A stretch of DNA of 64,000 bases from Malania oleifera (lineage: Eukaryota; Streptophyta; Magnoliopsida; Santalales; Ximeniaceae): the NCBI RefSeq assembly GCF_029873635.1, contig NC_080422.1, positions 58,315,889 to 58,379,888 on the forward strand, in the 5' to 3' direction. Both the position numbers and the translations under genes were made by a program. This document shows positions 4,680-50,916 of the stretch, in pieces. Position 1 is the stretch's first letter, and each line of letters opens with the position of its first letter. The notes under the pieces are model-generated. The model saw only the letters and a list, made by a program, of their open reading frames with translations, did not search any database and had not been told where the DNA came from.

Positions 4680-5684
4680 TATTGGAATTGGTGTGATCCC
4701 AAGGGGGGTGAATTGGGTTTTAAAACATTTTTCGTTAATTTAAACAATTACGCCGATTCACCACATATCATATCCCATTCAATATAAAACGCGTATATGT
4801 AAAATGACTAAGCTATTGGGTCATGCATACACGTGTATCTCATTCAATGTAAATGTGTGCATGTAACTAAATATAACAGTAAACAAATAGGCATACACAT
4901 ATTGAATTTATAGTGCAGTAATTTAAATGAGATAGGGAAAGAATGACACACAGATTTGTTAACGAGGTTCGACCAATATTGTCAACGTCCCCACCTGGGG
5001 CATACCCCCAAGGATTCCACTAAACCTGCTCACTTAATCGGGAGGAGTAGAAGCCTTTTATATCCTCTCTTTACGGGGCGAGGAAAACCCCAACTCAATT
5101 ACTAGGCTAAGCCAAACTAGTCTCACTTGCGGGGCTGACACTCCCCAGTTCAATTCTTGACTCAACCGAACCGGTCTCATTTACGAGGCTGAGACTCCCC
5201 AATTCAATTAACAGGCTGAACCCAACCGTTACAATAAAACCATTTTTTACATGAAATTGCTTCTAAAAATACAAGCATAGATATACACAATAAAGCTCAA
5301 TACATGCACTCTAATATGATATGAATTATGCTCAGTAGAGTAAGGGTGTGTAAATCTATTCAAACCCTAATAAGAAATTTTCTCCAAAAATATTTTTCAA
5401 TAACAAACTAGAGAACCTAGGGTTTTGGTTTCAAATGATTTTGCATAAAAAATACATGCATTTGAAAATCTATGTGCAAATCAAAGCAAGTAAAAGCCCA
5501 AATAAAATACTCTCTTGTAAATATGGTTTTCAAGAAAAATGAAAGAGAGTTTGGAAAGTATAACAAAGATTTGACCCCAAAAATATTTTTCAATAAAACG
5601 ATTGTTTGGGGGAACTTTGATTAAGAAATAATTTGAAAGAATTTTAATACTAATCAAAGTTACTAATCTTGGCTTATGAAGGGG

Positions 5685-5719
5685 TATATATAGACTCACC
5701 GAAATTTTTGACCGTTGGG
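5685..5719 (-). promoter_or_regulatory. LTR promoter: TATA box and MSA-like element
   Basis: On the minus strand TATATATA lies at 5692-5685. Just upstream is CCCAACGGTCA (5719-5709), an exact match to the plant mitosis-specific activator consensus YCYAACGGYYA bound by three-repeat MYB proteins. The position is shared with the E5 and E6 LTRs. Activity is inferred. Confidence 0.55.
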
Positions 5720-5788: not shown

Positions 5789-6158
5789 CCCGAGAGATTC
5801 AGTCACCCGAGCCATAGGTTCGGTCGCCCAAACACTCATGAAGATAAAAGGCATTTTTTGAAGTTTAGGTGCCTGAGTGCAGGTTCGGTAGTCCGAACAA
5901 AAGTCAAGAACTTTCGTTCGTAGGTTCGGGTGCCCGGTGCGGGGTTTGGTTAACCGAACTGACCAATTTGGTCGCCCGAGCCCAATTTGAATGTGTCGTT
6001 TGGTCGCCCGAGTAGTTGAAAAGTGCCCTGACATAGGTTTGGGTGCTCGGGGACGATACGTTCAAAACGAGTTCAGGTGCTTGAATGCAAAGTCAACGTG
6101 TTGACTAGTTCGGTCGCCCGAGCTATTTTACACAGCCTGGGTTCGGTCGCCCGAACCC
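5789..6158 (-). repeat. U3 inverted-repeat array, GGTTCGG-TCGC-CCGAACC type
   Basis: About ten copies or derivatives of TTCGGTCGCCCGAA occur in 370 bp. The best is at 6140-6157 with perfect 7-bp arms GGTTCGG/CCGAACC around TCGC. Others have single changes such as TTCGGTAGTCCGAA and TTTGGTCGCCCGAG. Spacing is irregular (about 25-45 bp), so this is not a simple satellite. Confidence 0.85.
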
Positions 6159-8863: not shown

Positions 8864-10694
8864 TGAAATTAGGAATAGTCCCAAGAGGGGGGGTGAATTG
8901 GAAACTTTTTATATTTTAATATGTTTTTCTAATCCTTTTCTTTAGATACTGTATAAAAACACAATAGGTAATTTATAAACACTCCTTAGAATACTTGTAA
9001 TCTAAATAGACAATATAATCAATAAAACTAAAACAATTTAATCACTCAATCAAGGATGATATTGCTTTTGTTGATTTCCCTGTGAATATGTATAACCTGC
9101 TTTGAAATAACTTTTAGTATGCGCCTCACTTGATTTAATATTTTCGCAGATTAACCAACGTACTCCCTTTTGGGTTCCGCAAATGGTTAATCGAAACGTA
9201 CTTTCTAAATACCAAGAATTCTTATTTCTTTTTCTTTGAAACTTGTTTCCTGCACTTTGAAATCACACAGCAAGTAAAGTATATAAAGTAGAGAGAAAGA
9301 CACAAGATTTTTATGAGGTTCGGCCTCAACACAGCCTACATCCTCGCCCTTGGCAAAATACCAAAGGTTTCCACTATAGCAGTTCCGTTACCGGGTGGAA
9401 CAACGCTTGTTTACAATCACTCCTTTGGTAAAGGCTAGAGCCCGCCTTCTCCAAACAATATGACCTTGTTTGGTCAACGTTCCAATAGCCTGGAATCATC
9501 CAAAATCTACAAGAGATATATCAAAACCTAATGTACAAGAGAAGCTCACTCACAGAGCAGATTAGTACAGATAAGAACTATGTACTTCAAAAGATAAAAT
9601 ATCAAGAATGAAATAAACTTTTGAAGCTTTTCAAAGAATTCACCCAAATCCTTATCTCCAGATGAGAAATCAGTAATTCTTCAGGATTTGATGAACAAAA
9701 GATCAGAACAACAGTACTTTTAGCTTTGCAAGAGATTGAGTAGAGTATTTTGAGAGTAAGAGAGCTTTGAGAGAATTTCAATGCTTGGGATAATATTTTT
9801 ATTCACAAGAACCATGTTTTATAGGCTTCTAAGTAGGTTTCCTTGTTGCAAGAGTTTCCTTAAAAAATTTCCCAATATATTAGAAAATTTGGGTTTCAAA
9901 CGGCTACAATTAAAATAAGAGTTTTAAAATTTTTGCCCGTTAAACAGTGTTCAGACGTCTGAAGTGTCGAGGTCAAACGTATGAAGTCTCTTAAAACCTT
10001 AAAAAATAGAATTGGATACAGGATCAGATGTCTGAAATTAGGGTTCAGTCATCTGATGTCACAGGTTTAGTCATCTAAAGTTGCAAGTTCAGACGTCTAA
10101 ACTTGCTGCTGCAACTCTCTGCCTGTTCTGAAAATTCTTCAGACGCCTGCACTTAATCTTCAGATGTCTAAAGTAATTCTTCAGATGTCTGAACTTAAGG
10201 TTCAGTCATCTGAAGTTGTCACTTCAGTCATCTGAACTCCCAAAAACTTGTTTTAAAAATTTTCTTCTTTAACACTGTTTTGCTCTCCCATGATTTTATA
10301 AAAACTCAATTCAATATATTTAAATAGGTCTTTAAACCTTGATAATCTCTTAGAAAAAGCTTGAAAATATATTTCAAAGATATTTTGCCTTTTGAAATAC
10401 TTACAAATATGTTTCCTAAGCCTTCATGCTTGAGTTTTCTTTGCTTTTGAGATTTTTTGAATAATTTGCTTGAGCTTTAAATATGTTAGACCCTCTTTGG
10501 AACATTGAGAAGTTATCTTCATACTTGACTTGTACTTATTCTTCTCTTAAACCATACTTGAGCTAAATTTAAGCATGCTTTGAGCCACACTTGATCCATA
10601 TTTCCTGAAACATCAAAAACTCAACCTTTTTCAAGTTAAATCATCCTTTGTTTGTTGTCACCAAAACCAATTGAAAAATCTTGTTAGGTCAACA
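8864..10694 (-). repeat. E1 3' LTR
   Basis: 1831 bp, minus-strand ends TGTTGACC at 10694 and TTTCA at 8864. It has a seven-base G run near the 3' terminus (8885-8891), TATAAAA at 9823-9817, and an inverted-repeat array at 9949-10238 with units such as TTCAGACGTCTGAA, TTCAGTCATCTGAA and TTCAGATGTCTGAA. The 5' LTR holds one more array unit. Confidence 0.9.
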
Positions 10695-10720
10695 ATCTTC
10701 TTCTTCTTCTTCTTCTTCAG
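10695..10720 (-). other. Purine tract (GAA)n in PPT position of E1
   Basis: On the minus strand (GAA)n-GAT directly abuts the LTR start at 10694. Other elements here have AAAAGGGGGAGAT at this place. The accessory ORF stops only 12 bp upstream. It may serve as plus-strand primer, or may mark a deletion that removed the usual 3' non-coding region. Confidence 0.5.
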
Positions 10721-10731
10721 TATGTCCTTCA

Positions 10732-11937
10732 TCACCCTCCTTCAGAATTTCCTTCTTTTTCTGCAGAAGTATCATCATCATCATCATTATCATCACTCAG
10801 AGGAGCAGAGCTAATGTCCATAGGATCACTGCTCTTAGAAGATTTGGCATGATATTTTTCTATATGCGTGACCCGTTTGTCAAGTGATGTGACTTTTGCT
10901 TTGATATTTTGAAGACTAGTGCATACTTCATAAGAAAAACTAGAGAAATCTTGTTGAAATGATAAGAACCAAGAAGGTGCTTCTGAAGATGAGCCAAGTT
11001 CTTGTGTGGAAGAAGATTGAGCAGCTGTTGGCACTGAAGCAGAGGCTAAGGCTGCTGCAAATGTAGGTGGTGCATGTGTAGTCTTGTTTGCTTTCAAAAA
11101 CCATCCGGAACCTCCCTTATCATATCCCATATGCTTTAGAGAAGTTTCATTAAAAAGATCATATCGAGTCCTTTTTATGAAAAACTCAGAAACACTAGTA
11201 AGGTTAAGATGAGTAAAGAGAAGAGTAAGAATTCCTCCATAAGGAAGAATAACGCGATTGGATTCCAACTTGGTCCACATCCAACGAACAATCAAACTAG
11301 CCAAATCCAATTTCTTGCCTTTAAGTAGACACCAAAGAACAAAACATTCGATATAAGAAAGATGATCAAAAGAGCCTTGTTTTGGTAAGATGTTAGTTGA
11401 AACTAACTTATGAAGAATTTGGCCTTTTAAATTCAATTGCTTGTATAGTGAAGGATGTGCAAAATAAACAGGCTTATGTTCCATAATCATGGGAAGAAAT
11501 TCTGCAGGAGTGAATTCTTGTTCTAGAATCCAAGACTAAGCAAACATAGGACTATTAAAATCTCCTGGAGTAAGTTTGAAAATAGGAGATAATATTTCAG
11601 AATTCAACAGTATTTTCATCCCTTTAACTTCTGAAGAGAAAATCCCATGTTCATATTGCATATTTGCATAGAAGATTTTAACTAAATGAGGAAAACAACC
11701 CTTGGTTTGTTGAGTGATAAAGTCATACCATCTAATAGCACGAAACAAGTTAAGGATATCTGGAAATTCAGTTGCAAAGAATGAGACATCCAAGACTTTA
11801 CCTAAGATTGGTTCTACAGAACTCAAGGAATTTTTATAACGAAGTTGAGCTCGAGGAGCAACTAACCATTTGTCAATATTTTGGGTTTCCCTCCCTGAGG
11901 AAGAACCTTTGTTTGCAGTTTGCTTGATTCGAGGCAT
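10732..11937 (-). pseudogene. Accessory ORF of E1, one in-frame stop
   Basis: The start is placed at MPRIKQTANKGSSSGR (ATG 11937-11935) because the E2 copy begins MPCTKQTKNHGSSSGR. A longer in-frame ATG at 12057 lies in the leader. The frame runs about 400 codons to a TGA at 10734-10732, broken once by TAG at 11538-11536. The first part (WYDFITQQTKGCFPHLVKIFYANM, LTPGDF) resembles what I recall as the 'putative plant transposon protein' domain (Pfam PF20167). Next comes an alpha/beta-like central part (YIECFVLWCLLKGKKLDLASLIVRWMW), then a Ser/Ala-rich linker, a short coiled-coil-like piece (QNIKAKVTSLDKRVTHIEKY) and an acidic tail (DDNDDDDD). No signal peptide or clear membrane helix supports an envelope role. 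Function unknown. Confidence 0.7.
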
Positions 11938-12094
11938 GGAGATACAAACTTTTAGAAACCCTAGATATTGTGTGGTGAATCTGAGTAGGATAGAGATTTC
12001 GAAGTGAAGGAAAAATGAGGGAAGATGAAATGTTTGAAGTTCGGATGAATGAACCAAGAAACTTTAGAGATCTGAAGTGAGGGTTTAGTGCGCT

Positions 12095-12286
12095 GAAATA
12101 TATAAATCCCGCGACTTCAGATGTCTGAAGATAAGTTCAGACGTCTAAAGTTTTAAAAATCTAGAAGTTTAAAAGTCAGTATGAGTTCAGACGTCTGAAG
12201 TCCTAGGTTCAGTCATCTGAACTCTTCTGCTACAGTGTTTAGACATCTAGGGTATGAACATCAGACGTCTGAAGTGTATATAAATT
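12095..12286 (-). promoter_or_regulatory. Putative internal promoter of the E1 accessory ORF
   Basis: Between the pol stop (12301) and the accessory ATG lie six inverted repeats of the type in the E1 LTR: 12114-12130, 12135-12150, 12185-12200, 12208-12223, a decayed one near 12238, and 12260-12275. A TATA-like box (TTTATATAT) follows at 12106-12098; a second lies at 12286-12277. A pyrimidine-rich leader of about 160 nt leads to the ATG. Array, TATA, leader, ATG repeats the LTR promoter layout. The E2 copy has the same arrangement. Confidence 0.6.
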
Positions 12287-12300
12287 CTGGAAGTTTTCTT

Positions 12301-15300
12301 TTAATACACTTCTCTGCTGTGAATTAACCCAAGTTCCCTCCTAATATGTATAAATCTTTCTTCACTTAAAGGTTTTGTAAAAATATCAGCCCATTGATCA
12401 CTTGTGTTTATAAATTCAAGAATGATATCTTCTTTTTGGACATGATCTCTCAAAAAATGATGTCTTATGTCTATATGCTTAGTTCTTGAGTGTGAAATTG
12501 GATTTTTAGATATATTATGGCACTTGTATTATCACACTTTATCGGAATTGTTTTATATTCTAAATTAAAATCCTTTAATTGTTGTTTCATATATAGGATT
12601 TGTGCACAACAACTTCCTGTGGCTACATATTCAGCTTCGACGGTTGATAAAGCTATAGAATTTTGTTTCTTTGAAAACCATGACACCAATGATTGTCCTA
12701 GAAAGTGACATGTGCCACTTGTACTTTTCTATCAATCTTATAACCAGCATAATCAGCATCTGAATAACTTATCATATCAAAATCCGTGTCCTTTGGATAC
12801 CATAACCCTAAATCAAGTGATCCTACCAAGTATCTAAGAATTCTTTTGACAGCTGTTAAGTGAGATTCCTTGGGAGCTGATTGAAATCTTGCACACATAC
12901 ACACACTAAACATAATATCTGGCCTACTAGCAGTTAAATATAGTAAGCTACCAATAATTCCTCTATAGTGTGTGATGTCTACCTGTTTTCCTTTTTCATC
13001 TCTATCAAGACTTGTAGTTGTACTCATAGGAGTTCCTATGGGTTTACTTTGTTCCATATCAAACTTCTTAAGCATATCCTTGATGTACTTAGTTTGATTT
13101 ATGAAAGTTCCATTTTCATCTTGTTTTATTTGTAATCCAAGAAAATAATTTAACACCCCCATCATACTCATCTCAAATTCTTTTGGCATACAAGTTGCAA
13201 ATTCTTTACATAAATCTTCATTTGTTGCTCCAAATATAATATCGTCCACATATATTTGAACTATTAGCATATCTTTAGTTTTGGATTTAATGAATAAGGT
13301 ACTATCAACTTTTCCTCTTGTAAATTCATTTTTAAGTAAAAATTTACTTAATCTCTCATACCAAGCTCTTAGAGTTTGTTTCAAACCATAAAGAGCCTTT
13401 GTCAATTTGAATACATGGTTTGGATTTTTAGAATTTTCCAAACCAGGAGGTTGTTTGACATATACTTCTTCATTTATGTATCCAATTAAAAATGCACTCT
13501 TTACATCCATTTGATATAACTTAAAATCCTTATGGGCTAAAAGCATCCTAATAGCTTCCATTCTTGCCACAGGTGCAAAAGTTTCACCATAATCAATTCC
13601 TTCTTCTTGATTATACCCTTGAGCCACTAGCCTGGCTTTATTTCTTATAAAACACCATTTTCATCCTTCTTGTTTCTAAACACTCATTTAGTTCCTATAA
13701 TTGTTTTATCTTTAGGTTTTGGTATAAGTTCCCATACTTGACTTCTTTCAAATTGATTTAATTCTTCTTGCATTGCTATAATCCAAGAATCATCATTTAA
13801 AGTATCTTCAATATTTCTAGGTTCATCTTGGGACAAAAATGCATAATGATTACAAATATGTTTTAGTGAGGCCCTAGTTGTTATCCCATTTGATGTTTCA
13901 CCAAGTATTTGTTCTTTTGGGTGATTTTTGTTATTTTTCCATTCTTTTGGAAGATTCAAATTTTCTGTAGAGTTTTCATTTGAGGCATCATTATCCTTTT
14001 CTTATTTTATTTCAATGTCTTTTTCTTTTTGAGGTATAACTTCTTTTTCATCATTCATGTCTTTGATGTCTAAACTATTTGTTTCATCAAAAGTAATATG
14101 AATTGATTCCATGATTGTAGAAGTTCTTTTGTTAAAAATCCTATAAGCTTTACTACTTGTAGAATAACCTAAGAAGATACCTTCATCTGATTTTGCATCA
14201 AATTTTCCTAGATCATCTTTAGTATTTAATATGAAGCATTTACAACCAAAAACATGAAAGTAGGAAAGATTAAGTTTTCTATCTTTCCAAAGTTCATAAG
14301 GTGTTTTATCTATTTTTGATCTTATTGATACCCTATTTACAATATAGCATGATGTATTTACAGCTTTTGCCCAAAAGTATTTAGGCAAATTATTTTCATT
14401 TAGCATTGTTCTTGTCATTTCTTGTAAAGTTTTGTTTTTTCGTTCAACAACTCCATTTTGTTGTGGAGTTCTAGGTGTTGAAAAATTATGAGTTATTCCA
14501 TGTTCATTACAAAATTTATCAACTTCCTTATTTTTAAACTCTCTTCCTTGATCACTTCTAAAACTTGTTACATTGTAACATTTCTCATTTTGTAATTTCT
14601 TACATAAGTTTATTAATTTGTTACATGCTTCATCTTTGTTTGCTAAAAATATTACCCAAGTAAATCTTGAATAATCATTTACTATAACAAAAGCATATTG
14701 CTTGCCACCTAAGCTTAAGGTTCTAGTTGGACCAAATAAGTCTAGATGCAAGAGTTCTAGAGGTCTTTTAGTGCATATGTATTTTTTCTTCTTAAAACTA
14801 GTTTTTACTTGTTTTCCCTTTTGACATGCATCACACAACTTGTCTTTTATGAATTTAGTATTTGGTAGTCCTTTTACAAGATTTTTCTTAGATAATTTGG
14901 ATAGTAAATCCATGCTAGCATGACCTAGTTTCCTATGCCATAACCAACTTACTTCATTCATAGCTGTTAAACAAGTTATGTTTTGATTTGCTATTTTCTC
15001 AAGATTTATACAATATACATTATTTATTCTATAAGCCATAAACAGAATTTCTTTGTTTTTTGGATTTTGGATAATACATTTTTCCTTCATGAAAATTACT
15101 TCAAAACGTTTATCACTTAATTGACTAATACTTAAAAGGTTATGTTTTAGTCCTTCCACTAATAACACATTATCTATAGTAAGTGAAGATTCTTTACTAA
15201 TTTTTCCAATACCAATAATTTTACCTTTGGCATTGTCGCCGAAGGTAACGTATCCCCCATCCTTTTGTTTAAGAGCAGAAAACTTGGTCTTGTCACCGGT

Positions 15301-15348
15301 CATATGCCTTGAGCACCCGCTGTCCAAGTACCATTTTTCCGTTGACAT
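12301..15348 (-). pseudogene. pol: E1 pol: protease-integrase-RT-RNase H, frameshifted
   Basis: The first open part (15348-14002, 448 codons) starts at MSTEKWYLDSGCSRHMTG: protease D9-S-G, integrase zinc ligands H138/H143 and C172/C175, and catalytic D203, D266 and E302 (35 residues between the last two). RT is open from 13627 to 12698 with QMDVKSAFL and YVDDIIFGA (DD at residues 128-129). RNase H follows in another frame from 12689 (VSWFSKKQNS, STVEAEY) and ends with the WADIFTKPLSEERF block and TAA at 12303-12301. Breaks: TAA near 14005, a Trp-to-TGA change plus frameshift around 13630-13690, and frameshifts near 12700 and 12500. All domains are recognisable, but one polyprotein can no longer be made. 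Confidence 0.9.
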
Positions 15349-15381
15349 TGTTGTCCTAAGGCAAACTTACAATGAGGGACA

Positions 15382-17145
15382 CTATATGTTAGTTTTTGGT
15401 ACCCAAATTCTTTTGACTTTCTTCATTTTGTTATTAGTTCCATTATTTGCTTTCCATTCTCCTTTAACATATTTTCTTTTTAATGGACAATTGAACATCA
15501 CATGACCTTTAGTTTTACACATATAACAAGTGTTGTGTTCATGTTTGTTATTTGATGAGGTACTAGCATAAAACTTGGTTTCCTTAACAAAATATCCCAT
15601 ATATAGCTTTTTATTCTTTTTATTTGTTTTACCATTGTAGCTTATTCCTTCTTTGTTTCCATGAAGTCTTTGTTGTCCGATCATCTTTTCAAAGTTTTCT
15701 TTTCCTTTAGTAAAATCATAGATAATCTTTTCTTTATCCTCAATTTCCTTTTTGAGTTCATTTATTTTTAAATCTTTCTTATTTAAGCCTTCTTTATGAG
15801 ATTTATCTAACTCTTGTTTTACAACATTTAATTCTTCTTCCAGTTGCTTATTATAAGTATGTCTTTCTTCTTCAATAACTTTGAATGATTCAAGTTGTTT
15901 TATTAGCTCTTGATTTTGATCTTTCAAAATCATGTTTCTTTTAGACTCTTTTATAAATCTTTTATGGAGTGAGAATAACTCAGTTTGTAACTCCTTATAA
16001 GAGGGTAAGCTATCACATGACTCATCACAAGACTAATTTGGAGATTTAGATGAAGAGTAATAAGAATTTACCTCTTCATTGTTTGCCATGAAGCATATAT
16101 TCGCCATCTCCTGTTCACTTGATTCAATTTCAATTTCGCTGGAGCTCGAGTCATCCCAAATAGCTTTCATTGCTTCCTTCTTTTTCTTCTTGTCTTTCTT
16201 GAATGATGGACAATCTGGTTTGATATGTCCTGGCTTTTTGCAATGATAACAAATTGGTAGATCATTCTTACCTTTATTTTCTTTCCTACTTGTCTCTCCT
16301 TTTTCAGTTTTCTTTTTATTAAACTTTCTAGGAAACCTTTTATTTCTTCTAAAAAATTTTCCTAGTCTCTTAGTAATAAAAGCCAGCTCATCTTGATCTA
16401 AGTCACTTGTTTCACTTTCTTCTTCACTAGTACTATGGCTAGATGCTTTTAGACCTATAGATCTTTTATGCTTAGATTCAGAATTTCTTTCCTTCAATGC
16501 CATTTCATACGTGAGAAGTGAACCTATAAGTTCTTCTAATGAAGTAGTTTTTAAATTTCTCCCTTCTGTGATAGCTGTGGCCTTTGGTTCCCGAATAGAA
16601 GGTAGGCCTCTTAGAATTTTTTTGATCATTTCATAAGTAGTATAGGTTTTTCCTAAGGCACTTAAGGAGTTTATTATGTGAGTAAACCTAGTGTACATGC
16701 TTGATATGGTTTCATTAGAATTCATTTTGAAAGCTTTGTATTCACTTGTTAACATGTATATCCTGTTATCTCTAACATCAATGGTTCCTTTATAAGTTAC
16801 TTCTAGTTTATCCCAAATTTCTTTAGCTGTTTTGCAGGCCATGACTCGGTTAAACTCATTAGCATCCAATGCACAATATAATGCATTTATAGCACTTGCA
16901 TTTATTTGAAGCATTTTATAGTCTAAGTTAGTCATATCTTTCTTTTCTTTTGAAATATGTTTTCCATCAACTGTTTTAGTGGGGATAAGATTTCCATCCA
17001 TGACTACTTCCCAAGCTTTCCAATCCATGTGTTGGAGATATATTTCCATTCTCTTTTTCCAAAAAGTATAATTGTATCCACAAAAGATTGGTGGACGGGT
17101 TGAAGATTGGCCTTCACCAAAGGGTGCTACTCCAATATTTGCCAT
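15382..17145 (-). pseudogene. gag: E1 gag with two zinc knuckles, one in-frame TAG
   Basis: Starts MANIGVAPFGEGQSSTRPP. Residues 1-370 hold a DUF4219/UBN2-type gag with LEVTYKGT, MYTRFTHIINSL and ILRGLP blocks and a first CCHC knuckle CYHCKKPGHIKPDC at 299-312. TAG at 16035-16033 interrupts the frame; it continues in register as a Lys/Glu-rich coiled coil (15933 onward), a second knuckle CYMCKTKGHVMFNC, and IWVPKTNI before TAA at 15384-15382. E2 has no stop at the TAG position, so it is most likely a mutation. The next frame-compatible start is the protease ATG at 15348. Confidence 0.88.
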
Positions 17146-17187
17146 TAGATCTTTTTATACTTTCTTGTTAGGAATCTCTATAACTAG

Positions 17188-17199
17188 GCTCTGATACCA
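17188..17199 (-). other. E1 primer-binding site
   Basis: TGGTATCAGAGC on minus, complementary to the 3' end of plant initiator Met-tRNA, two bases from the 5' LTR end. All 12 bases are intact. Confidence 0.95.
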
Positions 17200-17201
17200 A
17201 T

Positions 17202-19068
17202 TGAAATTAGGAATAGCTTCCCAAGAGGGGGGGGGGGGGGGGGTGAATTGGAAACTTTTTATATTTTAATATGTTTTTCTAATCCTTTTCTTTAGATACT
17301 GTATAAAAACACAACAGATAATTTATAAACACTCCTTAGAATACTTGTAATCTAAATAGACAAGATAATCAATAAAACTAAAACAATTTAATCACTCAAT
17401 CAAGGATGATATTGCTTTTGTTGATTTCCCTATGAATATGTATAACCTGCTTTGAAATAAATTTTAGTATGCACCTCACTTGATTTAAGATTTCCGCAGA
17501 TTAACCAACGTACTCCCTTTTGGGTTTCCGCAAACGGTTAATCGAAACGTACTTTCCAAATACCAAGAATTCTTGTTTCTTTTTCTTTGAAACTTGTTTC
17601 CTACACTTTGAAATCACATAGCAAGTAAAGTATATAAAATAGAGAGAAAGACACAAGATTTTTACGAGGTTCGGCCTCAACACAGCCTACATCCTCGCCC
17701 TTGGCAAAATACCAAAGGTTTTCACTATAGCAGTTCCGTTACCAGGTGGAACAACGCCTGTTTACAATCACTCCTTTGGTCAAGGCTAGAGCCCGCCTTC
17801 TCCAAACAATATTACCTTGTTTGGTCAATGTTCCAATAGCCTGGAATCGTCCAAAATCTACAAGAGAAATATCAAAACCTGATGTACAAGAGAAGCTCAC
17901 TCACAGAGCAGATTAGTACAGATAAGAACTATGTACTTCAAAAGATAAAATATCAAGAATGAAATAAAATTTTGAAGCTTTTCAAAGAATTCACCAAAAT
18001 CCTTTTCTCCAGATGAGAAATCAGTAATTCTTCAGGATTTGATGAACAAAAGATTAGAACAACAGTACTTTTAACTTTGCAAGAGATTGAGTAGAGTATT
18101 TTGAGAACAAAAGAGCTTTGAGATAATTTGAATGCTTGGGATAATATTTTTATTCACAAGAACCATGTATTTATAGGCTTCTAAGTAGGTTTCCTTGTTG
18201 CAAGAGTTTCCTTAAAAAATTTCCCAAGATGTTAGAAAATTTGGGTTTCAAACGGCTACAATTAAAATAAGAGTTTTAAAATTTTTGCCCGTTGAACAGT
18301 GTTCAGACGTCTGAAGTGTCAAGGTCAGACGTATGAAGTCTCTTAAACCCTTAAAAAATAGAACTGGATATAAGGTCAGACGTCTAAAATCAGGGTTCAG
18401 TCATCTGATGTCGCAGGTTCAGTTATCTGAAGTCGCAAGTTCAGACGTTTGAACTTGCTGCTGCAACTCTCTAACTGTTCTGGAAATTCTTCAGACATAT
18501 GCACTTAATCTTCAGACGTCTGAAGTAATTCTTCAGATGTCTGAACTTAAGGTTTAGTCATCTGAAGTTGTCACTTCAGTCATCTGAACTGAACAGTTCA
18601 GTCATCTAAACTCCCAAAAACTTGTTTTAAAAATTTTCTTCTTTAACACTATTTTGCTCTCCCATGATTTTATAAAAACTCAATTCAATATATTTAAATA
18701 GGTCTTTAAACCTTGATAATCTCTTAGAAAAAGCTTGAAAATATATTTCAAAGATATTTTTCCTTTTGAAATACTTACAAATATGTTTCCTAAGCCTTCA
18801 TGCTTGAGTTTTCTTTGCTCTTGAGATTTTTTGAACAATTTGCTTGAGCTTCAAATATGTTAGACCCTCTTTGGAACATTGAGAAGTTATCTTCATACTT
18901 GACTTGTACTTATTCTTCTCTTAAACCATACTTGAGCTAAATTTAAGCATGCTTTGAGTCACACTTGATCCATATTTCCTAAAACATAAAAAACTCAACC
19001 TTTTTCAAGTTAAATCATCATTTGTTTGTTATCACCAAAACCAATTGAAAAACCTTGCTAGGTCAACA
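17202..19068 (-). repeat. E1 5' LTR
   Basis: 1867 bp, collinear with the 3' LTR. Differences include expansion of the terminal G run to 17 bases (17227-17243, against 7) and one extra inverted-repeat unit near 18590-18610. TATAAAT lies at 18175-18169, with the array at 18301-18613 upstream of it in element orientation. Confidence 0.9.
18301..18613 (-). repeat. U3 inverted-repeat array, CTTCAG-ACGT-CTGAAG type
   Basis: About twelve units. The one at 18510-18525 is a perfect 16-bp palindrome CTTCAGACGTCTGAAG; decayed forms replace the central ACG by ATG or ACA, or use TCAT. Arms TTCAG/CTGAA are much better kept than the spacers. AGACGTCT contains a bZIP C-box-like core. Confidence 0.9.
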
Positions 19069-19244
19069 ACACCCAACCAAAGAATTTGATTCAATCAACA
19101 CAAACCAATGATTCACAATGTAATGCTACCAACTTTTGAATAATTCAATGCTCTCAACAAGATAACCAAAACAAGATTCACACTAAAGAATAAATTCAGT
19201 AAAGCTTCCAATATTCAGAAATTAAGTAACTCAAAGTAGAGTTT
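19069..19244 (-). mobile_element. LTR Y, piece 2 of 3
   Basis: 176 bp of non-coding sequence between E1 and E5. Its right side ends in AGTTT, which is repeated at the right end of E5. It is AT-rich and similar in type to the segment after the G-run block of the other LTRs. Confidence 0.5.
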
Positions 19245-21356
19245 TGTTAGAATTGGTGTATTCCCAAGAGGGGAGCGAATTGGGTATTTAAAAATTTCTC
19301 CTCTAGGTTCAACTAGTTCAGCAACAGTATATTCACAACCTAGAGTCAGTTCACCTAAAAGCACAGATAAGTAAAATGTATGGAATTTAAATCATGCGCA
19401 TAATTCACACAATAACATACACGTGTGGTAAATATAAAGTACGAAAATATAAACTGACACACGATATGTTATCGGGGTTCGGCCACCTATGCCTACGTCC
19501 CCGCCTTTAGCTCGCAAGCCCAAGGATTCCACTAATGGCTAACCTAATGAGTGGAGCGGCACCTAATACAACCAGGTCAATTAGCACAGGGCTGACCTCA
19601 ACCTTTACAACCAGGTCAATTAGGGGGCTGACCTTAACCAACACGCCTTAACAAGATGGCACAACTAGCTTTCCTAATCGGGTCTAAGTTAGTTCGGGAC
19701 TATTTCACAGGGCTAACTAGTCTCCCTCTTCAGGTCCATGCTTGGAAATACAATAGTATTTTTCTCAATCAAGTTGGTACAGTGATTGTGCTTTCATGTA
19801 AAGCAAATATGTACCCAATACGTGCAAGTAATAATCAATCCACAGCAAACATGTAAGAACTATAAGCTCGATGGTGTATATGTGCAATCTACACGCAATA
19901 TTATGACTTAATCTAATCAAGCAAAAGAGTGATCAAGCAAGCTAATCTTTGAAAGCAAAGTAAATGAAATCTTAATATCAGCTTAGTGTTTCAAAGATGC
20001 TAGCAATATTATTCAAATAAACTTGAAATATTTTCTCAAATTGTATCAAGCACAAGAGTTGTTTGAAAGCAAGCTTAGAAAAATATTTTGCACACAAAAA
20101 TAATTACTCAAGGAATCTTGCAATGATAATGCAAAGATCCTCAAGCTAAAGAGTTTTCCTAGCACAAAATTTATCAAGTTAAATTTGTGGGAAGAACTCA
20201 AGCCAAACTCTCAATAAAAATCAAACAATACAAATATCAATGAGAGTATAGGGCTTTGTAGGATCACTCAAGATGTACTTACTCAAAAAGATTTGGCAAG
20301 GGAATGATGGGTATATGAGATGTGTATGAAGGAAGGGCACTCAAAAAGTCAGAGAGAATTTTCTTAATCTAACTCCCTAATCTCCTGTTTATTTTAGCAA
20401 ATGATCTCATATATATAGACATAGGGAGAAATATGACCGTTAGGGACATGAAGGGTATTATGAGGATTGTTTTAAAACGTTTAAAAATAATTAACCCCAT
20501 TTAAAAAAGTTAACTATGGTAAAAAAATCATGTCCAACCCAAGAGCACCGATAGACCGAGGCAAGTTCGGTTGACCGAAGTTCTTGAGATTCGGTCGACC
20601 GGGCATGAAATGAACTATAGCTTCGGTCAACTGAACTTGTAAGTCTATCGGCGATTTTTCATTTCTACGAGGTTCGGTCGTCCGGAACCATTTTGAACTG
20701 AGCCGGTCGGTCGACCAAACTAGTCGACCAGGAGGTCAATAAAGTTGACCCTTGGGGAGTTCGGTCAATCGAGGTCAAATGAATTGCGTGACTTCGGTTG
20801 ATCGGGTTATGGTCAACTTGTTGACCCAGCACCGGTTCTGTCGACCGGACATTTTTGTACAGGGTAGTTTGGTCGATTGAGTGTGCATATTTAGTGCATT
20901 TCAGTCTTGGTTCAGGCATTCAATCACTCTAATCAAATGACCAATCATATGTATGCATGAGTGAGTGTCCTAGAGTCATTTTTAGGCCTTTTTGAGTGCA
21001 CCGAAAAAATCTGGTGTCCGTCGACTGAAGGGTGTTTCCTAAGGTCTTTCTATGGTCATTTTGATTTTCAGAAGATGTGTAGGGACCTAGAGTTGTTCTA
21101 AGGTCTTTGAGCTTGTAGTTCCTACATACATGAAATGCAGATTATTACGAACCTTTTCTTAATTAAATATTAAAGACCTGAATAGAAATTACAACAATTA
21201 AATTATAATTAGGGTCTTCAGGGTCTTCATTTTCTTCCAGGTCTTTGAGTTCCATCATATGATATCGCCAAGATAAACCTACACATCAACTCGGTAGACA
21301 TTAAGTACCTGAGTATTTGTCATAATCAAAATAGGGTATGACCCATAGGGTCAACA
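19245..21356 (-). repeat. E5 3' LTR
   Basis: 2112 bp. Minus-strand start TGTTGACCCTATGG at 21356 and end CTAACA at 19245; terminal block gggagcgaattggg near 19270; ggggttcggcc block near 19474. TATA at 20417-20410, MSA-like site at 20444-20434, inverted-repeat array about 20548-20890 (TTCGGTCGACCG types, many decayed). Confidence 0.92.
20410..20444 (-). promoter_or_regulatory. E5 3' LTR TATA box and MSA-like element
   Basis: TATATATA (20417-20410, minus) is preceded by CCTAACGGTCA (20444-20434), an exact fit to YCYAACGGYYA. In the 5' LTR the same place reads TCTAATGGTCA, a CG-to-TG type loss. Confidence 0.55.
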
Positions 21357-21371
21357 ATCTCCCCCTTTTTG
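21357..21371 (-). other. E5 polypurine tract
   Basis: AAAAAGGGGGAGAT on minus immediately before the 3' LTR, preceded by a T-rich gtcatcatc-like signal: the standard plus-strand primer of this copia group. Confidence 0.9.
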
Positions 21372-22029
21372 ATGATGATAAATACTTGCCTACTTCTCCC
21401 CCTTTTGGACACAACCAAAAGGGTCTAGATAAACATTCAAATATATATAGGAAAATAAGAAGAAAATATCATTTTTATACACAATAAGTTTGGAAAGTTT
21501 TTGAAAAATTTCGGCAGCATGCCGTTTGAAAATAGGACTTTCCAAAACAAATCCTGTATAAAAAGGACTTGTTTGAGTTTATAAAACCTAACAATTTATC
21601 CACAACTACTCAAACAGTTTAGTATTCTCAATACATAAAATAGAAGTATAACTTTCAGTCATTCAAGAGATAGAATATCCATGCAATGCAAAATGAATGA
21701 CAAAGATAACTTCAACAATTTTACTCATAAACAATACAACTGGTCATTAAAATGATTTAAATAACATGAAAAACAGAATTAGACCATAAATATGCACAAC
21801 CCATTACAAACATATCATAAGACTCGTGGAAGATTTGACTTAAAGGCACACGACATATGATACCAAAAAGAAGGTTTGAGCATAAACATAGTCTAACTAA
21901 TTCACATGCATTTTTATGTGAAGTTACCAAACCAGTTATGCAAGTTAAACCATATAGTAAATAATAATAATAATAAGGCAAGAGAGAAAATAAATTTAGT
22001 TTCGAAATAAATTCTTGCCATATGGTATT

Positions 22030-22063
<34 letters not shown>

Positions 22064-24462
22064 CTTTATGATATTTGTTTAAAGTACTAGGGGTGTGCAT
22101 GCAGAAAAAGAAACTTTAATTTTAAAACAAGCAAGCACAAATTTAGCATAAATTTTCTGGTTTGTCAATTAAGCACATACTAAGATATAACCAAAAAACC
22201 ATAACCATAATGATTATAAGCATTTAACAATCACATGCTCGATCATATGACAAATAAAATAACATTTGGCAAAGAAATATATATCAACTTAATATTTTCA
22301 CAAAGGTCACTTCAGTTAAGCATATGTCACAGTGAGTTCACAATAGATCTAAGCTAAAAATATTTATGAGCAAAACAAGATAGGAATTTATGCCTAGATG
22401 CTCCCCCTATCAATTTGAGTACATGCTTAGATTATTTAACTGCTTATACTAACCAAAGATTAATTTCATTATGCTTAGTAGTATAAGTCATCAATCCAAA
22501 TCTTTAAAATCAACTATACTGAGTATTTGTCAATTGCATTTATCACTTGATTAGTATAGTAGTCCCTATAGATCATAGATGCATAAGAGAATGTATATTG
22601 AGGCATGCAATAATGTTCATGACCCAAGAACATTCCATATCAAATCATAAGCCTTTAAGCACTAGGTATAATGTTTAGGGTATTCTCAAGAGCCTCGATA
22701 TTTTAGTGGATGAAAGTGATGCATATGGATTCTTTAAGTTCTTTCTATAGGGATGGAGTTGGGCTCCCTTAATTATTTAATGATTATGCAAGGATGAATT
22801 TTAATTTTCTATTTGGTTTCACTAATCCTTTCAAAAATATTTTAACATTAATTTTATCATAATCATCCTTAGCACAAGGTTTTATTTTGGGAAAATTCTT
22901 GTCAAAATTTCGGCAGCATGTCGTCTGTAAATCGAATATTTTCCCATAAAACTTGTACTTGATAGGTTCAATTAAGCAATTATAATTAAGTTCAAGGCAC
23001 ACGAGAACCTATATCTGCTACCAGCGTGCAATATACATCAATTGCATCCGCCATGTAGGAGACTTTCAATACAAGCATGCAATCTAGTAGTAATCAACAA
23101 CTTAACAAAATATAATCCATCCATTAATGAATATAAATCGTAGAAAGCAGAGGATAGATTTGAGTTTAGCAAAGGCTTTTATTCATTAAGGCATTCAAAC
23201 ATGTAGTATAATTATAAGAGCATTTAGTTAATATAACAATCAAAGAAAGATGCTCCCCCTGAGTTATGCGCTTATTCAATTTATGCCTTTTCTTAATTAT
23301 CAACTTTCTTTAGCCAAGGTTATTAAGATTTTCAATGAATTTAGACTTGGCATGAATGCTTTAGGCTTATTAGACCAAAAAGTCACAGTGAATGTTTCTT
23401 TAAGTGTACTATGCCTATGTCTTCCTCTTTTCTTATGAATCTCAATATGTGAGAGAGAGGCCCAAACAAGAATGGCTTTCGACTTAAAATTGCACATGCA
23501 TAGGTTTACTTGAATTTTATACATTTATCTAGATTGAGACCTAGGCGATCATATTAGCCATTCAACTTCATTTAAGATATGAAGCTCTAAAGGATTTGAC
23601 TTGAAAGATGAGAGCTTTGTGTGAGAAATAAAGAATGAATACTCTTAAAGATTAAACATTTTATTTAAGAGAGTATTCAAAAGTAGCACATTGTACAAGA
23701 TAAGCTTTCTAAAGAATATGTCCTAGCTTATTTTGGCAAAGAGCATTTTGGAGGATATGAATAACTAGTAACTGACGATCTTTGGTGATTGGAAAGTATC
23801 ATTTAGATATTATCACAATTTGGGACAAGGATACAGGTAGATAGGTGAAACCTTACCGAATATGATCATGGTTTGGTAAGGATTTCCTATGAATGAGATA
23901 AACCAAAATTAGAGGATTTTTATATTTTTGGTTCAAAGGAAATATTTTGATTTTAATCAATGAAATTTGAATCCCTTAGTGGTTGCTTCTAATTTTGACA
24001 ATAGCAAGATGTCTTATGAAGAGCACATTTAATGTATATTAATCATTTATAATCAATTGTGCTTTAAGCCTAAAGTGATGAATAAATTTTATTTGAGGCC
24101 TTTATGTTCATGGAATGTCATTAGGGAAGAATGATATCTAACAAGATGAATTCCCTAAGACTAAACATGTGCAATGGACAAAAATATGCTTAACTTAGGA
24201 TATCTACATTTAGGCATGGATTAAGCATTAAGAATTTTATACTGAGCAAAGATGCTTTAGTCCATTTGGAAGTGAATTTTATTAAAATTTTAAATTGGCT
24301 TGCTAATCTTATGATTCTTAGTATGGCAAAAGTGTATAGTGAATACATATACTAAAAATTTTCATTTTGAGCACTAACCACTTCCTAAACCTACAGTCAT
24401 CACAACCCCCTAAACTTAAACCTTGAATCTAAGGAAGCATTAAATAATTAAGTAGTATTAAT
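21372..24462 (-). other. E5 conserved non-coding 3' region
   Basis: About 3.1 kb without a supportable ORF. Parts align with E6 (for example 23250-23370 with 31610-31730, about 90% by eye) and, reversed, with E3 (22390-22300 region with 44700-44800, sharing gggggagcatct and agtgaact blocks). It holds several ctccccc tracts (PPT-like on minus) and an AT microsatellite at 22032-22060. Conservation between elements with diverged LTRs suggests a cis function such as packaging or reverse transcription (inference). Confidence 0.6.
22032..22060. repeat. (AT)n microsatellite
   Basis: AT dinucleotides inside the E5 non-coding region. Confidence 0.95.
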
Positions 24463-25648
24463 TTAAATCCATTTCATTTCCTTTTCTAAGCCTCTGGCAC
24501 TTCTAAGTAAGCAATTAAGCCATACGTGCCACATAGTTTTGCAAAATAAGCAGGTATTGAATATACATAAAAGATTGTGCTTATTTATTCTATTTTTCTT
24601 CAGTGAGACTAGACTATTGGTTTTATACAAACAACCTGAATCCTTTTTGAAAAGAATTTTCTTTTTAAGTCCGAAGGGGTTGTTTAGGTTATCTTTCTCA
24701 CTTGAGGATTCGAAAAACATTTTAGAATGATTTTTAATTTTTCTTTCTAAGCAAATGATTTTCAAAACCTTCTCAAATTTTCTCCTTTCTAGAGTGGCCT
24801 GATATTCTTTCAAATCATTTTAGTGCTTTGCCACCTTTTCATTATCAATTTTCAAAAATGTTTTCTTCTTTGATATCTCAACTAGAATTCTATGCATTTT
24901 AAATGAGGTCTTTTCTAGTTTTCCATATGAAAGCATCTCATCAAATGATTCATCACATGATTTATCAAATTGATAAACACATGAATCATTGCATTCATTC
25001 ATACCATCATCATCACAAGAAACATTTGAAGATTCATCACAAAATATATTATAGGAATCAATAGATGAATCATCACATGCAATATTAACAAAATTATCAT
25101 TACGTTCAGTAGATGATTCAACATATGACACAACATAGCATTCAACAAAGGAATTATAAATCGATTTATCATTAGATTTAGTACGTGTTATATAGCAACA
25201 TTCGCAACAGGGGTCAGCAAAAGAGATAGAGTGAGAATCATATACCTCACTGACTACAAATGTTGCATGCTCATGATTTACCGCCTCTTGATCATTTGAA
25301 CTTGGAGCATCCAGAGGAGTAATCTCTTTCTCTTGGGTCTCTCCATATTTTCTTTCAAGTTCATCCCAGATATCCTTTACACTTGCACTTACACATGCCA
25401 AAATCTCAAGTAAAATATTAGACTCTAAAGCACAATATAATATATCCATGGCATTATAATTAATCATGTTAAAATCATTTTCATTTATTTGTGCACATCT
25501 TCCTTTAGCAGTCATAAGTCAGAACCTCCAGTCCATAGATTTTAAAAATATGGTCATTCTAAATTTCCAGGTGGTGTAATCGAAAAAATAATGGAGGACT
25601 GGTAGGTGACTGTTCCTTTCCGAATGGGGGTACACCAATATGAGTCAT
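24463..25648 (-). pseudogene. gag: E5 shortened gag
   Basis: Starts MTHIGVPPFGKEQ (ATG 25648-25646), shifts frame near 25520, and continues open 25515-24820 with the UBN2-like start (INYNAMDILYCALESN, VKDIWDELERKYGET). Where full gags go on with the MYTRFTHI and RGLP blocks, this one passes to a Ser/Asp/Asn/Cys-rich stretch, then a Lys-rich segment, and after a stop a CCHC motif CLFCKTMWHVWLNC (about 24566-24525). First knuckle and half of UBN2 are missing. E3 has the same junction (GETKGKKSSTWEDPYSND against GETQEKEITPLDAPSSND), so the deletion predates both copies. Confidence 0.75.
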
Positions 25649-25688
25649 CTCGATCTTTTAGAAAAAATGTCTAAGTCAATGCCACGAG

Positions 25689-25700
25689 GCTCTGATACCA
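25689..25700 (-). other. E5 primer-binding site
   Basis: TGGTATCAGAGC on minus, two bases from the 5' LTR end; intact initiator-Met type. Confidence 0.95.
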
Positions 25701-25702
25701 AT

Positions 25703-27869
25703 TGTTAGAATTTGTGTATTCTCAAGAAGGGGTGAATTGAGTATTTAAAAATTTCTCCCCTAGGTTCAACTAGTTCAGCAACAACATATTCACAACCTAG
25801 GGCCAGTCTACCCAAATGAGTAGATAAGTAAAATATATGGAATTTAAATCATGCACATCATTCACACAATAACATACACGTGCGGTAAATATAAAGTGCA
25901 TAAATATAAACAAAGACATGATATGTTATCGAGGTTCAGTCAATTGTGCCTACGTCCCCACCCCTAGCTTGCAAGCTCGAGAATTCCACTAATGGCTCAT
26001 TTAATGGGTGGAGCAGCACCTAATACAATCAAGTCAATTAACACAGAGCTGACCTCAACTTTTACAACCACATCAATTAACGTGGCTGACCTCAACCAAC
26101 ATGGCTTAACAGGATGACACACCTAGCTTGCCTAACTGGATCTAAGCTAGTCCGGGACTATTTCATAGGGCTAGTCTCCCTTTTTAGGTCCGTGCTTGGA
26201 AATGCAACAATATTTTTCTCAATCAAGTTGGTACAGTGATTGTGCTTTCATGAAAAGTAGATATGTACCTAATAAGCGCAAGTAATAATCAATCCACACC
26301 AAACATGTAAGAACTATAAGCTCGGTAGTGTATATGTGCAATCTACGCTCAATATAATGACTTTTTCTAATCAAGCACAAGAGTGTTCAAGCAAGCTAAT
26401 CTTTGAAAGAAAAGTAAATGAAATCTCAATATCAGTTTAGTGTTTCAAAGATGCTAGCAATATTATTCAAACAAACTCGAAATATTTTCTCAAATTGTAT
26501 CAAGCACAAGAGTTGTTTGAAAACAAGCTTTGAAAAATATTTTGCACACAAAATAATTACTCAAGGAATCTTGCAATGATAATGCAAAGATCCTCAAGCT
26601 AAAGAGTTTTCCCAGCACAAAATTTATCAAGTCAAATCTGTGGGAAGAATTCAAGCCAAACTCTCAATAAAAATCAAACAATACAAATATCAATGCGAGT
26701 ATAGGGCTTTGTAGGATCACTCAAGATGTACTTAATCAGAAAGATTTGGCAAGGGAATGATGAGTATATGAGATGTGTATGAAGAAAGGGCACTCAAAAA
26801 TTTAAATAGAATTTTCTTAATTTAACTCCCTAATCTCTTGTTAATTTTAGCAAATGATCTCATATATATAGACATGGGGAGAAATGTGACCATTAGAGAC
26901 ATGAAGGGTATTATTAGGACTATTTTAAAACGTTTAAGAATAATTAACCACATTTAAAAAAGTTAATCATGGTAAAAAAATCATGTCCAACCCGAGAGCA
27001 CCGGTCGACCGAGGCAAGTTCAGTTGACCGAAGTTCTTGAGGTTCGGTCGACGGGGCTTGAAATGAACTATAGGTTCGGTCGACCTGACTTATAAGTCTA
27101 AGGGCGATTTTTCATTTTTACGAGGTTCGGTTGACAGAGGCCATTTTGAACTGAGTCGGTCGGTCGACCAAACCATTGAGTTCCTGCACGTGGGAACTCG
27201 GACGACCAGGGCATTGCAATGTATTTTCTTCTCAGTCGACTAAGAGGTCAATAAAGTTGATTGCTGGGGAGTTCAGTCGAATGGGGTCAAATGAATTGCG
27301 TAAGTTCGGTCGACTGAGCTATGGTCAACTTGTTGACCCAGCACCGGTTCGGTCAACCGAGCATTTTTGTACAGGGCAGTTCGTTCGACCGAGTGTGCAC
27401 ATTTAGTGCATTTCGGTCCTGTTTCAAGCATTCAATCACCCTAATCAAATGACCAATCATATGTATGCATGAGTGAGTGTCCTAGGGTCATTTATAAGTA
27501 TTTTTTAGTGCATCGAAAAAATTCGGTGTCGGTCGACAGAAGGGTGTTCACTAAGGTCTTTCTATGGTCATTTTGACTTTTAGGAGATGTGTAGGGACCT
27601 AGAGTCATTCTAAGGTCTTTGAGCTTGTAGTTCCAACATGCATGAAATGCAGATTATTACAGACCTTTTTCTTAATTTAATATTATAGACCCGAATAGAA
27701 ATTACAACAATTAAATTATAACTAGGGTTTTCAGGGTCTTCATTTTCCTTTAGGTCTCCGAGTACCATTATATGATACCGCCAAGATAAACCTGCACATC
27801 AATTCAGTAGACATTAAATACCTGAGTATTTGTCATAATCAAAATAGAGTATGACCCATAGGGTCAACA
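25703..27869 (-). repeat. E5 5' LTR
   Basis: 2167 bp, collinear with 19245-21356. TATA at about 26870-26862, inverted-repeat array 26998-27395, TG...CA ends kept. The terminal block is reduced to aaggggtgaattgag. Confidence 0.92.
26998..27395 (-). repeat. U3 inverted-repeat array, TTCGG-TCGA-CCGAA type
   Basis: About eleven units in 400 bp, for example CCGGTCGACCGAG (27000), GGTTCGGTCGAC (27041), GGTCGGTCGACCAAA (27160) and GGTTCGGTCAACCGAG (27347). The full form TTCGGTCGACCGAA is self-complementary. Confidence 0.85.
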
Positions 27870-33117: not shown

Positions 33118-34406
33118 GATCACTCAAGATATTTGAGAATGTTTTGAAAAGATTTTTTGAAATCCAAAAACAAATACAGACATCCTAAGATATTGCAACG
33201 AATATGCAATACTCATAAGTTTAATACAAGTCTTCTTAGGAGAGACTTATTAACAAAGTCCCTTAATAACACTTAGATTTGGCTCTCAATAAAAATTATT
33301 TCAAACAACCACCAACCAAGTGAGAGCAAACCTTTGAGCAAACAATCACTCAAGGCAACTTACAAAGAGTTTAGGGAATAGGAGAAGGTAAGTATGAGTG
33401 AATGGAGTGTGAAAATGACTAGTAGGAATTTTGAGCTTGAGAAAGAATTTCTTAATCAAGTTGGCTAATCCAATTACTAATCATTCCAAATGAAGGGGTA
33501 TTTATAGACTACCCTTGAATTATAATCGTTAAGGACATGTTTGGAATTATTAGAAAAGATTTAATGATATTTAATTATTTTAACCCTATTTTACTGAGTT
33601 AACCGCGGTAAAAAAATGGATCCAACCCGAGAGCACCGATCGACCAGGACAAGTTCGGTCGACCCAAGTTCTTGGGGTTCGGTCGACCGAGCCAAAAATG
33701 AACTGCCTGTTTGGTCGACCGGATATGTATATCCGAGGCAATTTTTCAGTATATCCGAGGTTTGGACAACTAGGGTGATTTTGAACTATATTGGTCAGTC
33801 GACCAGAGCATTGGTTTCCCACACATGGGAACTCAGTCGACTAGGTTGGTGGTATACAATTCTCGCTCGGTCGACTAGGAAGTCAAAATGTTGACTTCTT
33901 AGGAGGCTTGGTCGACCGGGGCCAAATGAACTACACAGTTCAGCTGACCGGGCCGTGGTCAATCGGTTGACCCGGTCCAGGGTCAGTTGATCGGGGGCAA
34001 AATAAACATGAAGGGCCGGTTGACTGAAGGTGCACATTTTGTGCAATTCGGATCTATTTCATGCAACAAATACCCTATTCAAAGGTCTAACACATACATG
34101 TGAAATAGTGAGTGTCCTAGGGTTGTTTGTAGGTCCTGTTTCATTTAGTTTTGGTTTGAGCTTACGTATTAGATCATGCACATGATGTGTGTGAGATTAT
34201 TACAAACCAAAAGCCCTAATTACTATTATAGACCCTTCACATGAATGAAATATATTACAATATAAAATAGTTGGGTCTTCAATATTCACTTTCTTTATCT
34301 GCATCTTGACATGTCAATTTAAGTTCCTACACATAACCTCAAACACTCATTAGATATAATGAGTATTTGTCATTATCAAAACTGGGCGTGGCCTATAAGG
34401 TCAACA
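33118..34406 (-). mobile_element. Copia LTR fragment with TCGA-type array
   Basis: The right end is ggtcaaca at 34406 (minus-strand LTR start); the left is truncated before the terminal G-run block. TATAAATA at 33506-33499, a decayed MSA-like site (CTTAACGATTA) near 33525-33540, and an inverted-repeat array at 33637-34030 with GGTTCGGTCGACCGAG at 33677-33692. The array type differs from E6, so it is not the missing E6 5' LTR. Confidence 0.75.
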
Positions 34407-41554: not shown

Positions 41555-41566
41555 TGGTATCAGAGC
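41555..41566 (+). other. E3 primer-binding site
   Basis: TGGTATCAGAGC two bases after the 5' LTR; intact initiator-Met type. Confidence 0.95.
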
Positions 41567-41608
41567 GGGTTTACTTTGACTTAATTATTAATTTGTAAAA
41601 GGATAACG

Positions 41609-48191: not shown

Positions 48192-48209
48192 AAAAAAATT
48201 ATAAATTTT

Positions 48210-50914: not shown

Positions 50915-50916
50915 TT

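Follow-up and report, generated by a model that had tools for sequence, protein, structure and literature searches.

Palindromic arrays in Sirevirus LTRs of Malania oleifera are candidate oriented binding sites of a dimeric protein

We analysed a 64,000-nucleotide stretch of the Malania oleifera genome (the window), whose elements are Sireviruses (Ty1/copia) by diagnostic features described in the part of PMC2829016 that covers them. The junction of 5′ LTR and PBS, CA-ATTGG-TATCAGAGC, occurs exactly at 17188–17203 (−, element E1), 25689–25704 (−, E4) and 41551–41566 (+, E2), and with three mismatches at four further places in the window. The polypurine tract octamer AGGGGGAG is present in 21 exact copies and directly precedes LTR starts, for example at 21358 (−), 45825, 56339 and 61255; no exact copy lies beside the 3′ LTR of E1. 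The order of genes is that of copia, with gag, and with integrase before reverse transcriptase, as judged by Pfam matches on the E1 ORFs. E1 itself spans 8887–19069 on the minus strand between LTRs that are 94.6% alike (3′ LTR at 8887–10695, aligned to 17237–19069), and encodes on the same strand a gag with a zinc knuckle (16033–17154, PF14223) and a reverse transcriptase (12698–13660, PF07727). The labels E1 to E4 and X are those of this analysis and may differ from the E1 to E6 of the first-pass annotation. Two interiors of about 4.3 kb, at 41553–45824 and 21358–25702, gave gag and protease matches only and are probably non-autonomous or deleted. E3 (48662–58599) appears to interrupt the env-like gene of X, an outer element, with env matches ending at 48662 and starting again at 58600 (48579–48662 and 58600–58901). 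The LTRs of E2 and E3 have 34-bp tandem repeats in their downstream part (41087–41188, 47606–47701 and 50484–50559).

At 5789–6158 on the minus strand lies an array of imperfect palindromes of the CGG type, with a sense core that is mostly GCGA. A TATA box follows at 5684–5693 (−), separated by 104 bp from the closest site of the array, bearing out the original placement of this array upstream of TATA. Neither PBS nor interior was found in the window for the LTR that carries it; we placed this LTR by array similarity, which groups it with an LTR at 29 kb and with 25 of the genome loci introduced below. We measured this array together with 11 other LTR arrays and one at 60.4 kb, and with two stretches that precede env-like genes, in E1 and X. 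CGG-type sites recur in the 3′ LTR of E4 (20566–20849, −, core TCGA), in a third minus-strand LTR (29242–29699, −) and in a fragment of five sites (33654–34028, −), and the 5′ LTR array of E4 is degraded (27019–27517, −). Sites of the form TTCAG-N4-CTGAA make up the 3′ LTR array of E1 (9950–10236, −), whose 5′ LTR array lies at 18302–18610 (−), and E2 carries TTCAG/TTTAG-N4-CTGAA in its 5′ LTR (39608–39928, +), with its 3′ LTR array at 46270–46436 (+). The remaining arrays are those of E3 (49108–49319 and 56785–57017, both +), a six-site array of GRCAG-GCGA-CTGYC (60380–60550, −) and the array of an LTR starting near 61255 (61762–61952, +), which we took as the probable 3′ LTR of X. In the LTRs measured, the nearest site is about 95–200 bp upstream of TATA. 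The expected 6–12 repeats per LTR agree with the 11 sites at 5789–6158 and the 6 at 60.4 kb; the other arrays hold 5–12, counted with arm templates at up to two mismatches.

The palindromic LTR arrays are real. The 370 bp of the array at 5789–6158 contain three perfect repeats with 5-bp arms and a 4-nt loop, where dinucleotide shuffles give 0.32 (1 of 500 reached 3), and seven repeats with four of five pairs, against 3.62 (21 of 500 reached that); one of the three perfect repeats is GTCAA-N4-TTGAC and not the CGG motif. Taking a count as exceeding chance where at most 25 of 500 shuffles reached it, we found that arm pairing alone set 10 of 15 window regions (this array and 9 of 14 others) above shuffles on at least one of the two counts, with no excess at 26870–27340, 46330–46440, 48300–48420, 49100–49400 and 61757–61990. 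A motif-free count of arms over 284 kb, a sample made up of the window itself, its two 10-kb flanks and 20 tiles of 10 kb, ranked TTCAG (27 against 0.49 expected) and TTCGG (5 against 0.06) highest in enrichment once N runs and ATATA/TATAT are set aside, with GTCAA also near the top. Genome-wide, TTCGGTCGCCCGAA occurs 3,969 times against 2 for the reversed pattern, GGCAG-NCGA-CTGCC 2,660 times against 1 for its control, and the chimera TTCAG-NCGA-CTGCC 40 times against 1. The three classes of site, TTCGG..CCGAA, TTCAG..CTGAA and GRCAG..CTGYC, share C-R-G, four bases and C-Y-G. The motifs named for each family by the first-pass annotation hold as family tendencies but not as exact units, most sites being imperfect: the window has four exact copies of TTCGG-N4-CCGAA, none of CTTCAGGCGCCTGAAG and no exact TTCGGTCGACCGAA, the nearest copy of which is one mismatch off.

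To this set we added 27 genome loci, each chosen by an exact match to a single 14-mer, TTCGGTCGCCCGAA, from 8 plus 20 places (100 places were listed of the 3,969 counted); L007 was dropped, as it overlaps L006. Since 25 of the 27 fall into one cluster, they share ancestry and their counts are not counts of independent events. We also added one neighbouring element, L009, as well as 14 loci picked by hand from 150 listed env-like places for an env match without a stop. The CGG-CCG core is present in the LTR of the 5789–6158 array, in E4, at 29 kb, at 33.6 kb and in the 27 loci that were chosen by it; it is absent from E1, E2, E3, X, the 60-kb array and L009, which mostly have CAG-CTG instead. 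The proposal that all LTRs with a preserved U3 carry such arrays was upheld in the arrays measured, but not in an unselected sample of 20 adjacent 10-kb tiles. These tiles yielded 11 PBS-like 16-mers with one to three mismatches, one of them too near a tile end, and in a search with two motif classes an array above shuffles lay upstream of only 1 of the 10 testable places (L018, TTCRG; GRCAG 0 of 10); no 16-mer was exact, so many of these places may belong to non-Sirevirus elements with the same tRNA primer. The tile result counts against 'all LTRs'.

The unit has a fixed geometry. When sites were chosen by the left arm alone on both strands, leaving out ascertained exact sites, CCGAA followed TTCGG 38 times and CTGAA followed TTCAG 64 times across a spacer of 4 bp, against 0–4 times at shifts of 1–4 bp, and mixed sites of the form TTCGG..CTGAA were common (30). 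With LTR orientation read from masked flanks, that is, from sequence outside the array, the sense core was GCGA in 27 of 27 CGG-type loci and TCGC in none, a single direction relative to the LTR; in L040 the flank matches fell on the side opposite to expectation (0 of 4), and L004, L039 and L046 are partly inconsistent. The sites had been said to occur in both orientations, which fails for these CGG-type loci and may hold for E3 and the 61-kb LTR, where sense cores include AAGA and TCGT. The two half-sites also differ: among sites with one half-site intact, it was the 3′ one in 105 cases and the 5′ one in 42 over 26 loci (P = 2e-7; excluding L040 and every exact TTCGGGCGACCGAA site), and in 55 and 21 cases in the window (P = 1e-4). 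Taken singly, only the E4 array of the window is significant for this bias, and there is no asymmetry in E3 (7 against 6) or in the pre-env arrays of E1 (2 against 3) and X (2 against 2).

The arrays had further been described as irregularly spaced, and we found that they are not simply so. Distances between neighbouring sites are mostly 20–22, 32–34, 39–46, 50–51, 60–65 and 71–74 bp; multiples of 10.5, give or take 2 bp, account for 74% of all distances and 60% of distinct ones, where chance would give 33%. Counting each distance once per cluster and including the arrays before env in E1 and L009, the best period was 10.2 bp (R = 0.456, n = 75), a value that none of 20,000 jittered sets reached, and the same held when the largest cluster was left out (R = 0.566, n = 45; 0 of 20,000). 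The largest cluster alone is weakly phased (R = 0.28 at 10.5), and phasing in the env-chosen loci was not significant (17 distinct spacings, P = 0.33). Several arrays contain tandem repeats with a period of 20–22, and duplicated units of 21–22 bp could be a partial source of the phasing.

Placing the arrays upstream of TATA describes the LTR arrays, but it missed the same motif in front of the env-like gene of E1, where an array of TTCAG-N4-CTGAA sites like those of the E1 LTRs spans 12040–12273 (−). The gene follows in two pieces parted by a TAG, 11539–11937 and 10732–11535, both on the minus strand, the second comprising part of PF20167, a coiled-coil-like helix and an acidic end. One motif is shared by LTR and pre-env arrays in all three env-bearing elements (E1, X and L009): in E1 the TTCRG-type sites number 10 and 12 in the LTRs and 8 before env; L009 carries sites of GRCAG type, 10 and 6, with none of TTCRG type; and X, an element joined by inference, has 8 and 7. 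The pre-env stretch of X lies at 48077–48578 (+), with seven sites at up to two mismatches and three at up to one. In the env-less interiors of E3, E4 and E2, in which no env match was seen, sites with at most one mismatch number 0, 0 and 1, and those with at most two number 5, 5 and 4 over 4.3–5.4 kb; E2 and E4 look deleted, and the absence of env there may be secondary. At least one CRG-N4-CYG lies upstream of the open frame in 10 of the 14 env-chosen loci, of which 8 exceed all but 0–3 of 200 shuffles, and 4 have none; among 40 such sites the core is GCGA in 8 and TCGC in 0. On contig C1 up to 57.2 Mb, GGCAG-NCGA-CTGCC was found by eye within 500 bp upstream of the env profile match at 3 of 6 listed env places, each time on the env strand. 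At L038/L051, where an env-bearing copy adjoins a CGG array, the pre-env sites are of CAG type and the adjacent LTR is of CGG type. An LTR-like start directly follows the broken env match there and no AGGGGGAG was seen by eye, which led us to read this place as a probable insertion of an LTR into env and to leave it out of the comparison of LTR and pre-env motifs in both directions.

The reading we favour, and consider fairly probable, is that the arrays are oriented sites for a putative dimeric DNA-binding protein that controls transcription of both the LTR and env. The arrays are the repeated motifs (RMs) of Sireviruses, and would act as grouped dyad sites, oriented and imperfect, on double-stranded DNA. 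A sequence-specific protein would probably bind each site as a dimer, through one strong half-site (3′ in the sense direction) and one weaker, and several dimers could sit side by side on one face of the helix. Dimers at the LTR array may control LTR transcription, and the second array with the same motif probably controls the env-like gene; where the specificity of the protein changed between families, both half-sites and both arrays would change with it. Dimeric protein sites were one of two possibilities raised by the first-pass annotation, and this one gains indirect support from the 4-bp spacer, the half-sites with a common family tendency, the period of about 10.2 bp, the single orientation and the presence of the motif at two places.

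Two special cases of this model differ in the nature of the protein. One, which we regard as quite possible though somewhat short of even, is that a host transcription factor uses the sites, for instance a WRKY-type factor at an inverted W-box pair, and that families differ through CpG loss and drift or through escape from a host repressor. Inside the array at 5789–6158 lies GTCAA-N4-TTGAC (6092–6105), a pair that we take to be W-box-like; further copies were noticed in or near CGG-type arrays at 20812, 27324 and 33958. Exact copies occur in 13 of the 27 loci, always within 200 bp of the array, with 24 in 337 kb against 0–2 for seven permuted arms; within 100 bp of the array span there are 11 exact copies and 14 with at most one mismatch, against 0 and 0–2 for eight permuted arms. 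The CpG content also fits a host factor. Two CGG arrays have ratios of observed to expected CpG of 1.14 and 1.34, and the 27 loci one of 1.11, with flanks at 0.48; in CAG arrays the ratio is 0.28–0.59, like that of their surroundings. The diversifying pressure once invoked for the family differences stays conjectural; one CpG transition in each half-site suffices to convert CGG-N4-CCG to CAG-N4-CTG. Since CGG to CAG and CCG to CTG are changes of this kind, the CAG types may plausibly have arisen through methylation, with the binding protein adapting afterwards. Against a host factor, no W-box pair with up to one mismatch lies near 13 of the 27 array spans, and such a factor alone leaves unexplained both the pre-env array where env exists and the motif matched between the two places.

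In the other special case the element itself would encode the binding factor: its env-like protein (PF20167) would serve as an activator or anti-silencing protein specific to the family, working on the LTR and on the promoter of its own gene in a way comparable to the VANC proteins of VANDAL transposons. This is unlikely in our estimation. In its favour, arrays precede env in three env-bearing elements and are scarce in three env-less interiors, and the family motif is identical at LTR and pre-env. A first look at the genome gave 8,173 PF20167 candidates, and all 150 that were scored match. The match in E1 falls below the curated cut-off (39.4 against 45 bits), and an unbroken copy of 447 aa, L066, matches at 76.7 bits. 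L066 has a basic N-terminus, a predicted long helix at 316–364 and a tail with a net charge of −24 over residues 361–440; no 19-residue window exceeds a hydropathy of 1.6, and there is no strong hydrophobic stretch. No DNA-binding domain was recognised in Pfam, however, and AlphaFold models of the env-like proteins were poor (mean pLDDT 53.9 and 47.4). Neither the first E1 piece nor L066 had a homologue at E 0.001, and a PDB sequence search gave a single match at E 0.37. The N-termini read MPRTKQTA in L064 and, by eye, in L051, MPRIKQTA in E1 (window position 11937, minus strand), MPRSKSVG in several copies and MVRTKTVG in L009 (by eye); we take MPR(T/I)KQTA to resemble the histone H3 tail, ARTKQTAR. 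LTR arrays are also kept in env-less elements, and transmembrane and coiled-coil domains are ascribed to Sirevirus env-like proteins in part of PMC3414828. VANC (part of PMC5735166) offers a precedent, by which the 'envelope-like' protein would be not an envelope at all but a nuclear, dimeric, family-specific DNA-binding regulator that recognises the RM arrays of its LTRs and of its own gene and co-evolves with them, a retrotransposon counterpart of VANC; we rate this proposal as a long shot.

RNA hairpins at the 3′ end of the transcript, serving packaging, stability or as a source of small RNA, were the second possibility first raised for the arrays, and we now think them improbable. We compared arm complementarity in 261 units, selected by a product pattern in which each arm is free of the other (165 in 26 loci, one exact site per locus left out, and 96 in the window). 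Within arrays it was no greater than with shuffled arms (loci 428 against 427.0, P = 0.50; window 284 against 278.7, P = 0.21), the outcome that the first-pass annotation had named as refuting, here at the level of units. Arms do shift together between window arrays (284 against 265.7 after shuffling between arrays, P = 0.0017) but not between loci (428 against 425.0, P = 0.38), and one of eight single-pair tests had an excess of double changes (pair 5–10, window, 5 against 1.9, P = 0.019 uncorrected). As it is in window families, not in single units, that the arms agree, the symmetry belongs to the family consensus, as expected for a dimeric protein and not for a hairpin. Imperfect sense pairs had no excess of G-U over A-C (59 against 173 in the loci, 46 against 54 in the window), and the half-site asymmetry likewise speaks against hairpins. 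In a folding test on 8 of the 26 loci and 12 other arrays with 50 shuffles each, all 20 arrays folded more stably than the mean of their shuffles, whichever strand was taken (z −1.15 to −8.21), yet z was lower for the sense strand in only 8 of them. Palindromes of maize Sireviruses attract small RNAs (Bousios 2016, as cited in parts of PMC10760457 and PMC5311732), and with such stable predicted folds the hairpins may yet be a source of small RNAs. Taken together, the tests favour sites in double-stranded DNA over RNA. Least probable, and by our reckoning very much so, is that the arrays are functionless leftovers of neutral tandem duplication: the 20–22 period repeats and the 9 of 10 PBS-like tile places without an array would suit it, but arms and 4-bp spacer are conserved across many diverged copies, one dyad stands at both LTR and pre-env, and grass and eudicot Sireviruses alike have palindromic RMs in the part of PMC2829016 that treats them.

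Arrays of this kind are already known. Bousios et al. 2010 (PMC2829016) described palindromic RMs in Sireviruses, lying upstream of TATA and in front of env, and the portions concerned match our arrays in many respects: the motifs are palindromic, in multiple copies, located before TATA and before env, specific in sequence to the element and rich in CpG in the CGG families. The linkers of env-less elements are described there as lacking copies, much as here, where E2 has a single site at up to one mismatch. The same source reports a CGG-CCG signature in 12 of 13 elements, the exception being Tnd-1, and the CAG-N4-CTG elements of the window likewise go without it. The CAG-N4-CTG variants (TTCAG..CTGAA and GRCAG..CTGYC) beside CGG-N4-CCG appear to be what is new. 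The main text of PMC2829016 has 'helical' and 'spacing' nowhere but in its references, does not contain 'half-site' and uses 'orientation' only for a supplementary table; within the literature surveyed, which covers the field in part, we met no earlier report of phasing, orientation or half-site asymmetry of Sirevirus motifs. The function of the RMs and of the env-like gene is called unproven in the relevant part of PMC2829016, and that of env also in PMC3414828. The 2016 study of maize Sireviruses, as cited, likewise reports clusters of LTR palindromes, rapid change and secondary structure; it stresses small RNAs, whereas our tests favour DNA sites.

VANC and the VANDAL elements (PMC5735166 and PMC10398659, in the parts that describe them) offer a second comparison, as they too have family-specific arrays of short motifs in non-coding element DNA that change together. 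They differ in being DNA transposons with a nine-base motif, to which a protein of the element has been shown to bind, whereas the binding protein of our arrays is putative, and the word 'palindrome' is absent from PMC5735166. Sireviruses are abundant in some plant genomes and make up 21% of that of maize (PMC10760457). Set beside the earlier description of their RMs, the geometry found here turns it into a testable model, in which oriented dimer sites, perhaps on one face of the helix, would carry the family motif at the LTR and before env.
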